In this document: positions 31,058-34,276 of the stretch, in pieces
Position numbering within the stretch: the first letter of the stretch is position 1
Layout: every line of letters begins with the position of its first letter
Origin: Micromonospora olivasterospora
GTDB lineage: Bacteria; Actinomycetota; Actinomycetes; Mycobacteriales; Micromonosporaceae
DNA length: 64,000 nt
Assembly (NCBI RefSeq): GCF_007830265.1
Contig: NZ_VLKE01000001.1
Coordinates: 620,001 to 684,000, forward strand
Reading direction: 5' to 3'
Translations under genes and position numbers: made by a program
Notes under the pieces: generated by a model
Databases searched by the model: none
What the model was told of the DNA's origin: nothing
The model's input: the letters and a program-made list of their open reading frames with translations, nothing else

Positions 31058-31678
31058 TCAGGACGCCGGCTGGGCCACCTCGCCGCCAGCCGTCTCGGCG
31101 AGGATCCGCTCGGCGACCTCCTTCATGGTCATCCGGTGGTCCATCGCCGTCCGCTGGATCCACTTGAACGCCTGCGGCTCGCTCATCCCGTACGTCGTCA
31201 TCAGCGCGCCCTTCGCGCGCTCGACCGTCTTGCGGATCTCCAGCCGGTCGGTCAGGCCCGCGACCTCCGCCTCCAGCGCGGAGATCTCCGCGTACCGGGA
31301 CAGCGCGATCTCCACCGCCGGCACCAGGTCGCTCTTCTGGAACGGCTTCACCAGGTACGCCATCGCGCCGGCCGCCCGCGCCCGCTCCACCAGGTCCCGC
31401 TGGCTGAACGCGGTCAGGATGATCACCGGGGCGATCCGGGCGCCCGCGATCCGCTCGGCGGCGGCCAGCCCGTCCATGATCGGCATCTTGATGTCGAGAA
31501 TCACCAGGTCAGGCTTCAGCTCGTCGGCGAGCCGGACGGCCGTCTCGCCGTCACCGGCCTCGCCGACGACCTCGTAGCCCTCCTCGACGAGCATCTCGGC
31601 GAGGTCAAGCCGGATGAGCGCCTCGTCCTCGGCGATCAAGACCCGCCTGCGCTCGGCATCCGTCTGCGTCTCGGCCAC
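31058..31678 (-). CDS. pdtaR: ANTAR-domain response regulator (PdtaR-like)
   Basis: Protein of 206 aa. Receiver domain 10-130 with acidic pocket E17-D18, phospho-acceptor D62 (LVILDIKMP), T/S and K108-type residues (ILTAFSQ, YLVKPF). C-terminal ANTAR RNA-binding domain about 140-200 (RKTVERAKGALMTTYGMSEP). PdtaR-type proteins bind tandem hexanucleotide hairpins in mRNA leaders after phosphorylation by a histidine kinase (PdtaS). No kinase gene is in this window. GTG 31678 has GGAGAGG upstream. Position before pyk follows the gene order I recall from Streptomyces. Confidence 0.93.
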   Translation of the reverse strand: MAETQTDAERRRVLIAEDEALIRLDLAEMLVEEGYEVVGEAGDGETAVRLADELKPDLVILDIKMPIMDGLAAAERIAGARIAPVIILTAFSQRDLVERARAAGAMAYLVKPFQKSDLVPAVEIALSRYAEISALEAEVAGLTDRLEIRKTVERAKGALMTTYGMSEPQAFKWIQRTAMDHRMTMKEVAERILAETAGGEVAQPAS

Positions 31679-31743
31679 GAGCCTCTCCTACCAGTTCAAA
31701 CTGACACCGCCGTGCCGGGTGTCGCGGCCCCTAGCCTAGTGGG

Positions 31744-31749
31744 TACTCT
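31744..31749 (+). promoter_or_regulatory. Possible -10 (TACTCT) for the tRNA/endonuclease unit
   Basis: TACTCT 20 nt before the tRNA 5' end, in the divergent region with the ANTAR regulator. No good -35 is seen. Confidence 0.3.
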
Positions 31750-31769
31750 GTCAGTGCCGAATCACGGAA

Positions 31770-31843
31770 GCCCCTGTACTCCAACCGGGAGAGAGACGGA
31801 GCTCAAACCTCCGACAGTGTGGGTTCGAATCCCACCGGGGGCA
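31770..31843 (+). tRNA. tRNA with CAA anticodon (Leu, UUG) but class I body
   Basis: 74 nt. Acceptor stem GCCCCTG pairs with CGGGGGC (one G-U). D arm contains AACCGGG with a weak 3-4 bp stem. Anticodon stem CGGAG/CTCCG encloses the 7-nt loop CTCAAAC, so anticodon CAA at 31804-31806 with U33 in place. Variable region only 5 nt (ACAGT). T arm GTGGG-TTCGAAT-CCCAC is perfect, discriminator A; CCA is not encoded. Bacterial tRNA-Leu normally has a long variable arm, so a class I tRNA with CAA is atypical. The endonuclease gene begins 33 nt after it. Confidence 0.8.
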
Positions 31844-31876
31844 CAAACTGTCATACGTGCGTTCAAAACTGGGCAC

Positions 31877-32626
31877 GTGCACCCACCTGAGATTCGCGCC
31901 CGAGCAAGACGCCTCTACCTGGCCGGCGCCACCGTCGCGGAGGCCGCCCGCGCCGTCGGAGTCTCCTACCCCACTGTCCGGCACTGGTGCAAAATCCGAC
32001 CGGAGCCGAAGCCACAGGGCACAGCACTGCGCTGCTTCCGCTGCCGCACCGACGTCGGCAAGCCGACAGACCTCGGGCAGTATGCCTACCTGCTCGGCCT
32101 CTACCTCGGTGACGGCTACCTGGTTACCACCGCCCGGGTTCCGGTGCTGCGCATCTCCTGCGCCGATACGTGGCCCGGCCTGATCGACGCCTGTGAGGAC
32201 GCCATGAAGAGGGTTCTCGCGACGGAGGTGCAGCGCGTCCAGCAACAGGGCTGCATCAGTGTGCAGAGCTACGGCACGCACTGGCCGTGTCTGCTGCCGC
32301 AGCACGGACCCGGCAGGAAGCACGAGCGTCCCATCGTCCTCGCCGACTGGCAGCGGGAAATCGTCACCGCCCATCCCGGGGACTTCGTGCGCGGCCTGTT
32401 CCACTCCGACGGCTGCCGGGTCGGCAACCGGGTCACGGTTCGCGGCAAGGCGTACGTCTACCCGCGTTACCTGTTCACCAACGAGTCCGCGGACATCATG
32501 GGGCGGTGCCAGTGGGCGCTGGGCCTGCTCGGCGTCGCCTGGAAGATGAACCGGCGCAACTCGCTGTCGGTCGCGCGCCAGGACGCGGTGGCCGCCCTGG
32601 ACCGGCACGTCGGCCCGAAGTCCTGA
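31877..32626 (+). CDS. HTH-LAGLIDADG homing-endonuclease-like protein
   Basis: Protein of 249 aa. Residues 1-40 form a helix-turn-helix (ARRLYLAGATVAEAARAVGV ... TVRHWCK) of the kind seen in transposase or resolvase DNA-binding domains. A CFRC knuckle sits at 53-56. Two LAGLIDADG motifs follow: YLLGLYLGDG at 71-80 (Asp79) and FVRGLFHSDG at 170-179 (Asp178), so a monomeric two-motif enzyme with both catalytic acidic residues. No intron or intein boundaries surround it; it is free-standing, directly downstream of the tRNA, and probably co-transcribed. GTG 31877 is the only reasonable start. Codon use is slightly less GC-rich than its neighbours, consistent with transfer. Confidence 0.8.
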   Translation: MHPPEIRARARRLYLAGATVAEAARAVGVSYPTVRHWCKIRPEPKPQGTALRCFRCRTDVGKPTDLGQYAYLLGLYLGDGYLVTTARVPVLRISCADTWPGLIDACEDAMKRVLATEVQRVQQQGCISVQSYGTHWPCLLPQHGPGRKHERPIVLADWQREIVTAHPGDFVRGLFHSDGCRVGNRVTVRGKAYVYPRYLFTNESADIMGRCQWALGLLGVAWKMNRRNSLSVARQDAVAALDRHVGPKS

Positions 32627-32900
32627 CCCGACGCGTCACGCGCTGCGGCACGGCCAGGCATCCTCGCCGAGTGCGTCGCCTGCGACGCGCCCAGCCTGCA
32701 CGCCCTGACGAGGCAGGGGCAAGGCACTACTGCCCGACAACATCCACGAGGGGGGTCGCCCACGGCGGGTGGCCCGCCTCGCCGCGCAGCGGCCCTCACG
32801 GCAAAGGCGGCGAACGTAAGACTGACGCGCAGCGGACCCACCGCAGAATATTCTGTTTGTGGTCCTTCTACGGCGTGTGAATTCGGAGCAGGATGGGCGC

Positions 32901-33188
32901 ATGCCCGTTTCACTGAACGACGTGCGGCCGTTCGCGGCCCTGGACGATGTCGATCGCGCGATTCTGCGGGAGCTGACGGCGGACGGCCGGCTGCCGAACA
33001 ACGCCCTGGCGGAGCCGGTGAGGGTGGCGCCGTCGACGTGCCTGACGCGGACGCGGGCGCTGCGGGAGTGCGGGGCGATCCGTGGGTTCCACGCGGAGGT
33101 GGACCCGGCGGCGGTGGGGTTGCCGTTGGAGGTGCTGGTGTCGGTGCGGTTGGCGGCGCACGAGCGGGCTACACGCAGACGAGTTTGA
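32901..33188 (+). pseudogene. Lrp/AsnC regulator, C-terminally truncated
   Basis: The 95 residues start with an AsnC-type HTH (LDDVDRAILRELTADGRLPN, NALAEPVRVAPSTCLTRTRA) and the beginning of the RAM effector domain (VGLPLEVLVSVRLAAHERA). They then end at TGA 33188 after RRRV, where a full protein needs about 55 more residues. Sequence beyond the stop does not continue the domain in any frame, so a deletion rather than a simple frameshift is likely. It may still bind DNA but should not sense ligand. Confidence 0.7.
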
Positions 33189-33271
33189 TTTTCGAGCAGG
33201 CGCGCGGAATGGGGTGAGCCACACGTGCCCGGCCGGGAACATTTCGGGCGCGCTGCGGGTTGGGGTGTCGC

Positions 33272-34276
33272 ATGATCGACGTACCGTTGGCTGTTCTTGA
33301 TCTTGCACCGGTCGCGGCCGGCGCGGGCGCGGGCGAGGCCCTGCGGCACACGACCGAGCTGGCCCGGCGCACCGAGGAGCTGGGTTACCACCGGTTCTGG
33401 GTGGCGGAGCACCACAACATGCCGGGGATCGCGAGTTCGGCGCCGGCGGTGCTGATCGCGCACCTGGCGGCGGCGACCTCGACGATCCGGCTGGGGTCGG
33501 GCGGGGTGATGCTGCCGAACCACGCGCCGCTGGTGGTGGCCGAGCAGTTCGGCACCCTCGAAGCGCTGCACCCGGGCCGGATCGACCTGGGCATCGGTCG
33601 GGCGCCGGGGACGGACCAGGTGACGGCGCTGGCGCTGCGCCGGACGATGGAGGGGCTGTCGGCGGAGGGCTTCCCCCGGGAGCTGGCGGACCTGATGAAC
33701 TACTTCACGGGCGAGCGGCCGGGGCCGATCGTGGCCACGCCGGGGCGCGGCGAGCTGCCGGCGATCTGGCTGCTGGGGTCGAGCGGGTTCAGCGCGCAGC
33801 TGGCCGGGCTGCTGGGCTTGCCGTTCTCGTTCGCGCACCACTTCAGCGCGGCGAACACGCTGCCGGCGTTGGCGCTGTACCGGCAGCACTTCCGGCCGTC
33901 GCGGTATCTGGAGAAGCCTTACGCGATGGTCGCGGTCAACGCGGTCTGCGCGGATACGGACGAGCGGGCCCACTGGTTGGCGGGCCCGGCCGACCTGTCG
34001 TTCCTGCGGCTGCGCTCGGGGCGGCCGGCGGCCCTGGCCACGCCGGACGAGGCGGCGGCGTACCCGTACACGGAGCTGGAGCGGGAGTTCGTGACGCAGC
34101 GGCGGGAGGGGCAGGCGCTGGGGTCGCCGGAGACGGTGCGCCGGCAGCTGACGGAGCTGCTGGCCCGCACGGGGGCGGACGAGCTGATGCTGACGACGCT
34201 GGTGTACGACGTGGCGGACCGGGCGCGCTCGTACGAGCTGATCGCGGAGAAGGTGGCGGGCGGCCTGCGCCGCTGA
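33272..34276 (+). CDS. LLM-class flavin-dependent oxidoreductase
   Basis: Protein of 334 aa, luciferase-like barrel: [20 protein letters not shown] near residue 45, [20 protein letters not shown], and [20 protein letters not shown] are the hallmark blocks of the MsnO8/YhbW type that uses FMNH2 or F420H2. Substrate unknown. ATG 33272 sits downstream of the truncated Lrp gene; Lrp regulators often neighbour LLM genes, so they may once have been a pair. Confidence 0.92.

Follow-up and report, generated by a model that had tools for sequence, protein, structure and literature searches.

tRNA genes are among the slowest-changing genes. The LAGLIDADG endonucleases of introns and inteins are sporadically present, decay and are lost. 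WhiA-type regulators of actinobacteria combine a helix-turn-helix (HTH) with a LAGLIDADG-like domain. In engineered cleave-and-rescue drives, a nuclease attacks a needed gene and a linked, recoded copy of that gene is immune. SegB of phages T4/T6 is a free-standing endonuclease that lies beside tRNA genes and moves by intronless homing; its target is given in a review as a tRNA intergenic region, and its homologues are described as co-localising with tRNA genes in phages (PMC2988022, PMC13096335).

Here we describe a locus in a 64,000-nt stretch of a Micromonospora chromosome (the window) in which a free-standing endonuclease gene likewise lies beside a tRNA gene. By analogy, SegB is the closest known way of working, and the gene in the window would be a variant of intronless homing. 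SegB is a GIY-YIG enzyme of a phage, whereas the enzyme considered here is a LAGLIDADG protein encoded on a chromosome. SegB homologues are described as favouring no isotype (PMC13096335), whereas the association here is with leucine; tRNA amplification is reported for SegB (PMC2988022, PMC13096335), whereas here the tRNA is rewritten. With the LAGLIDADG enzymes of introns and inteins the protein shares the double motif with two acidic residues, but it is free-standing, carries an N-terminal HTH, and its gene is located beside its presumed target gene rather than inside it. Unlike WhiA, it has no WhiA Pfam match, keeps both catalytic Asp residues and is encoded by an optional gene. Compared with cleave-and-rescue drives, the system would be natural and bacterial, and the attacked gene would be a tRNA gene.

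We regard it as fairly probable, judging from sequence comparison, that this is a homing endonuclease specialised on tRNA-Leu genes, for which the linked tRNA would serve as both target and immune allele. Such a leucine-specific LAGLIDADG lineage would be an addition to the tRNA-associated homing endonucleases. We recognised no report of leucine-tRNA-associated LAGLIDADG genes in bacteria, or of class I tRNA-Leu in actinobacteria, in listings of the open-access literature.

The features of the locus, in window coordinates, are the following.

31058..31678, minus strand: pdtaR-like ANTAR response regulator, the fixed left flank (Pfam Response_reg and ANTAR; used as synteny anchor)
31680..31769, plus strand: tRNA leader/promoter stretch, swapped between species along with the tRNA 5' half (seen in pairs of loci with near-identical pdtaR)
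31770..31844, plus strand: tRNA-Leu(CAA), class I (short variable arm), A73 (ARAGORN, Rfam, class I model)
31770..31813, plus strand: tRNA 5' half (acceptor 5' strand, D arm at 31779-31795, anticodon arm), hypervariable in endonuclease-bearing loci; putative recognition/cleavage region
31849..31870, plus strand: candidate endonuclease promoter of the DNA-damage type, TGTCATAC-N8-AAAACT (from a matrix of 68 of 70 loci)
31877..32626, plus strand: HTH-LAGLIDADG homing endonuclease, 249 aa, GTG start (ORF, Pfam, alignment, purifying selection among relatives)
31877..32071, plus strand: N-terminal HTH and linker, first ~65 codons, where endonucleases beside class I tRNAs depart most from those beside class II (Pfam, class contrast)
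32111..32113, plus strand: codon of catalytic Asp79 in motif 1 (YLGDG), invariant in 27 of 27 rows
32408..32410, plus strand: codon of catalytic Asp178 in motif 2 (HSDG), invariant in 27 of 27 rows

This arrangement agrees with a preliminary description made from the letters of the window, which reported a tRNA followed by an endonuclease with two intact LAGLIDADG motifs and an N-terminal HTH, an ANTAR regulator as left neighbour and no surrounding intron. The gap of 33 nt that it gave is correct when counted from A73 and is 32 nt from base 31844. The endonuclease gene indeed lies outside any intron or intein: the tRNA is uninterrupted, and no Rfam intron family matched 31500-33000 at E 1 or better.

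The same description, having the sequence only, had missed that the tRNA gene has a short class I variable arm despite its tRNA-Leu identity. Leucine tRNAs are described as normally long-armed (PMC7609411). The gene scores 51.2 bits with the Rfam tRNA model (gathering score 29) and 96.2 bits with the class I model, for which the next listed match in this genome, tRNA-Leu(TAG), scores 72.9. Among the other tRNA-Leu genes fetched from this genome, CAG, TAA and GAG are long-armed and TAG is short; the last gene (C1:3970069-3970142; L011 and L152) also belongs to class I. No second CAA tRNA was detected among the 28 of 50 genomic tRNA matches whose anticodon was read, which include all eight matches longer than 80 nt, none of them with CAA. 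One more Rfam tRNA match (48.8 bits, C1:5275716-5275789, L002) was not called by ARAGORN and is possibly a degenerate tRNA.

In the 249-aa protein, HTH_23, HTH_28 and LAGLIDADG_3 exceed the Pfam cut-offs; there is no GIY-YIG match, and the WhiA family is absent from the 16 Pfam matches. A zinc-type CxxC had also been noted; it is present in the protein of the window and missing from several of the 27 diverse rows. Other searches with the protein gave only I-AniI in PDB by phmmer (E 2.4), one weak PADLOC match in the HTH region, weak PHROGs matches mostly in the HTH region, and no match in known phages and plasmids at E 1e-3. Among 48 endonuclease rows the median dN/dS is 0.23 over 1124 pairs (0.27 in the HTH part and 0.20 in the core), and the endonucleases that accompany class I tRNAs differ from those of class II chiefly within the first 60 residues, which could be explained by linkage alone.

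Relatives of the endonuclease lie beside leucine tRNA genes across the phylum. The protein is matched in 22 of 296 genomes of the phylum at E 1e-8, this genome included. Outside this genome, 21 of 22 loci adjoin a tRNA-Leu gene (CAA, TAG, CAG or TAA), an adjacency beyond chance, and one adjoins tRNA-Trp. The endonuclease gene lies either on the 3' side of the tRNA or on its 5' side, where it may share the tRNA's strand or point away from it. In addition, tRNA-Leu(CAA) is nearby in 24 of 24 named loci from contigs. Viral contigs, some of them near-copies of each other, encode sixteen distant relatives with 27-36% identity: nine genes are within 100 nt of tRNA-Leu, one is at ~155 nt, one overlaps a predicted tRNA-Leu, three adjoin tRNA-Met, one adjoins tRNA-Ala, and one has no tRNA in the locus. 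The lineage extends across a bacterial phylum and into some viruses. Because the association with tRNA-Leu holds both phylum-wide and in viral contigs, tRNA-Leu genes are probably the homing sites of the family.

Two further loci, L214 and L237 (G173 and G395), have endonuclease relics of ~82 and 21 residues beside a class I tRNA-Leu(CAA); both genomes were scored as endonuclease-less in the phylum count despite these relics. In another two loci (L136 and L137, from G163 and G178 of the same genus), the endonuclease is divergent on the 5' side of tRNA-Leu(CAA), and the two tRNAs share their acceptor and anticodon stems and are very different in the D arm.

Within Micromonospora, the same chromosomal place is occupied by a class II tRNA-Leu or by one of several class I versions. 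We sorted pairs of loci by pdtaR identity (0.94 and above) into three bins and compared them, using 85 of 94 loci (four had no anchor match, and in five the anchor was too near the start of the stretch). Pairs were formed without independence of descent, and with this reservation the tRNA 5' half has an identity of 0.99-1.00 in endonuclease-less same-class pairs (0 of 35 below 0.9 overall), 0.91-0.96 in endonuclease-bearing class II pairs, and 0.74-0.82 in class I pairs bearing an intact or broken endonuclease, in which the 3' half stays at 0.95-0.97. When the classes are pooled, 23-33% of endonuclease-less pairs fall below 0.9 tRNA identity, against 62-84% of endonuclease-bearing ones. Since pooled endonuclease-less pairs also differ, class switching is not limited to loci that currently have the endonuclease. 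Of the 94 loci that remained once seven near-copies were dropped, 70 bear the endonuclease, and 27 of these carry a tRNA of types b-e; none of the 24 loci without the endonuclease does (Fisher p 1.2e-4, ignoring descent). Endonuclease-less loci comprise 14 of class I and 10 of class II. Types a, IIa and IIb are found both with and without the enzyme, so resistance would need enzymes of differing specificities.

Nine control groups from outside the genus have no endonuclease at the locus (four CAA and five TAA groups, being genera and one multi-genus family, hand-picked from the class I list). Their 5'-half identity is 0.93-1.00, with a lowest pair of 0.864. In one genus of the same class, where four genomes have the endonuclease and two have a relic, 5'-half identity is 0.715 over 15 class I pairs; two further members of that genus carry class II. 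A second leucine tRNA, tRNA-Leu(CAG), keeps 93-100% identity across 59 of 60 Micromonospora genomes; the match in G092 was only partial and apparently to another gene. The preliminary description had left three roles open for the tRNA (cargo, target or fixed border). The role of target gains support from the association with tRNA-Leu, both across the phylum and in viral contigs, and from this fast change of the 5' half in endonuclease-bearing groups.

The changes largely keep the stems paired. Across 20 of 41 collected class I sequences, all distinct and drawn from several genera, 99.0% of the pair cells are standard and 78 cells carry two-sided changes. The anticodon stem covaries at all five of its pairs and the D stem at two of three; in the T stem, four pairs out of five are invariant. 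One covariation measure, that of further pair types, did not exceed its shuffles.

Exchanged tracts are visible between loci whose pdtaR 5' ends are 98-100% identical. In such pairs the endonucleases are 86-93% identical, the leaders only 42-69%, and the tRNA types are different. The swapped block between L093 and L103 consists of the leader and the tRNA 5' half and ends at the T arm, with conserved flanks; between L029 and L035 it also takes in the HTH part of the endonuclease. This exchange of leader and 5' half favours the tRNA as partial cargo. One clear case of horizontal gene conversion, covering part of the gene, is a tract in L121: upstream, 42 of 42 informative sites are L032-like, from +50 to +499 after the tRNA, inside the endonuclease, 134 of 149 sites are L023-like, and the sites are then mostly L032-like. 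The link between endonuclease and tRNA type is loose. On a tree of 55 endonuclease rows (220 aa or more, near-copies removed), tRNA type changes 22 times; the least possible number is 7 and the shuffled mean is 34.2, so the labels are more clustered than shuffled ones. Tight pairing of an endonuclease clade with a tRNA type was rejected as a rule on the same figures, 22 changes versus a minimum of 7.

The spacer between the two genes contains a conserved element, TGTCR-TAC-N4-GTTC-GAnnAT, as read from 68 of 70 loci and ending 6 nt before the GTG start. Its inner part resembles an SOS box (TCGAAC-N4-GTTCGA), and a degenerate SOS-like box at 31851-31866 overlaps the putative promoter. In the 68 aligned loci TGTCR is nearly invariant, the spacing is 8 nt, and the A and T of the -10 element are invariant. 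The RecA-independent (PafBC) damage promoter is given as tTGTCRgtg-8 nt-TannnT (PMC5656591). The mismatches to this consensus are the first base of the -10 element, mostly G, and the 'gtg', mostly TAC in Micromonospora. Five loci from outside Micromonospora (L038, L040, L041, L043 and L045) have (T/C)GTCGGT(G/C)-N8-GAnnnT, with GTG at the 'gtg' position in four of the five. This similarity suggests that the endonuclease may be under DNA-damage control. Its transcript is possibly leaderless, with the GTG 6 nt past the -10-like element.

The proposed course of events is as follows. The tRNA is a resident chromosomal gene. A susceptible tRNA-Leu allele, in cells or in incoming DNA, would most likely be cut in its 5' half, between the D arm and the anticodon arm, and repair from a resistant homologue would copy a short tract between conserved flanks: the leader, the tRNA 5' half and, in some cases, a portion of the endonuclease. 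The linked tRNA would thereby be both the target and the immune allele. Cycles of attack and escape would rewrite the stems by compensatory changes and may have helped the exchange of class II for class I tRNA-Leu. An apparent promoter of the endonuclease itself, of the DNA-damage type and in the 32-nt spacer, would time cutting to active recombination. Lineages gain the endonuclease, let it decay and lose it, and the tRNA stays.

A further-reaching version, to which we give rather less than an even chance, is that the locus is a cleave-and-rescue drive of natural origin which acts on a housekeeping tRNA. Escape from attack on tRNA-Leu would then be the cause of rewriting in tRNA-Leu(CAA), at its D arm and anticodon stem, and would permit class I/II replacement at one locus within a genus. 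If this is true, a selfish nuclease can drive the evolution of the decoding apparatus: close species have structurally different tRNA-Leu, in step with a linked endonuclease. It would also offer a natural instance of target recoding that can be tested directly.

Alternatively, an ordinary selfish gene could use the flanks of tRNA-Leu genes as a safe landing place, and the tRNA turnover could be driven otherwise, for example by RNA-level attack on tRNA-Leu (toxins or phage-defence nucleases) or by replacement from mobile tRNA arrays. We consider this unlikely, though it has several observations on its side. The form of tRNA-Leu(TAG) seen in this genome is found full length in just 14 of 60 Micromonospora genomes, itself included; this locus therefore turns over too, and in this genome it has no adjoining endonuclease of this kind. 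Class I tRNA-Leu (CAA, CAG, GAG) occurs in dense, mobile-looking arrays of several Micromonospora genomes. Class IIa is constant in the presence of the endonuclease, being identical in 26 loci of which 18 bear it, and both classes also exist without it. Against this alternative, fast change of the 5' half tracks the endonuclease in two genera and is unseen in the nine control groups, and the tract swapped between L093 and L103 stops at the T arm between conserved flanks. An RNA-level agent would in addition leave the exchange of leader DNA unexplained.

The tRNA arrays are ~3 kb long and were seen in six genomes (L166, L167, L168, L170, L171 and L172, from G109, G133, G125, G142, G019 and G076); among those read, several hold class I tRNA-Leu (CAA, CAG, GAG). 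Class I tRNA-Leu may have come from such arrays. tRNA array units in mycobacterial linear plasmids are reportedly the subject of a paper of 2026 (PMC12803027). All 30 loci from a phylum-wide class I search are tRNA-Leu (CAA or TAA), and 24 of them have no endonuclease match. Class I tRNA-Leu (CAA/TAA) is widespread in Actinomycetota, which the usual class II structure does not predict. The endonuclease was rejected as the creator of class I tRNA-Leu, since class I is common in lineages without the enzyme.

The distribution of the endonuclease within Micromonospora bears on a second alternative. The gene is matched in 125 of 151 genomes at E 1e-10, and 26 have no match. Twenty of the 125 matches are partial, split or broken, showing frame breaks, stop codons or deletions. 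Some of these are on short contigs and a few are perhaps assembly faults; the one in G032 resembles an in-frame deletion. Among the 26 endonuclease-less genomes pdtaR was found in 24, and tRNA-Leu(CAA) is directly beside it in all 24, which makes the tRNA a fixed gene and the endonuclease an optional one. A promoter-like remnant persists in 8 of the 24 endonuclease-less loci with at most three mismatches (in five with at most one), so some of these loci represent losses. A clean empty site or junction was not found among the 24. The endonuclease is, in sum, sporadically present at a fixed site, with decay and loss.

This pattern argues against a domesticated protein that has lost nuclease activity and now binds DNA to regulate the tRNA or some process nearby. 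The N-terminal HTH, the purifying selection, the conserved spacing to the tRNA in Micromonospora and the source annotation of relatives under names such as 'transcriptional regulator' would fit such a regulator. However, both catalytic Asp residues are invariant, and in 46 of 151 genomes the gene has either no match or a broken or partial one. It is also found at different tRNA-Leu genes, on one side or the other, and in viral tRNA clusters. We hold a regulatory role to be quite improbable; our finding rather suggests that a number of genes named 'transcriptional regulator' in Micromonospora are homing endonucleases.

The preliminary description had proposed that the pair moves as a unit, and had named a tRNA standing without the endonuclease in most relatives as the sign against this; such tRNAs exist, but only in a minority of relatives (26 of 151 genomes lack a match). 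A cassette of tRNA and endonuclease inserting together at new loci would agree with the ~30-40 nt spacing in Micromonospora (one decayed exception) and with the viral pairs in tRNA clusters, but it is highly improbable and was set aside, given that the tRNA occupies the same place beside pdtaR in all 24 endonuclease-less loci examined, that this genome has a single endonuclease copy (at E 0.01) and most matched Micromonospora genomes a single place for it, that the 3' end of the tRNA is not repeated in the window, and that endonuclease and tRNA can exchange separately.

An integrative element inserted in the tRNA was also rejected: none of the six neighbours scanned is an integrase, and no second copy of the tRNA 3' end was found in the window with up to three mismatches. 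There are likewise no direct repeats of 14 nt or longer in 31680-33300. On the right-hand side the scan covered an AsnC-type HTH frame, a luciferase-like monooxygenase and a PLP decarboxylase. The first of these, a short frame at 32859-33188 directly to the right of the endonuclease, is perhaps the truncated start of an Lrp-like regulator.
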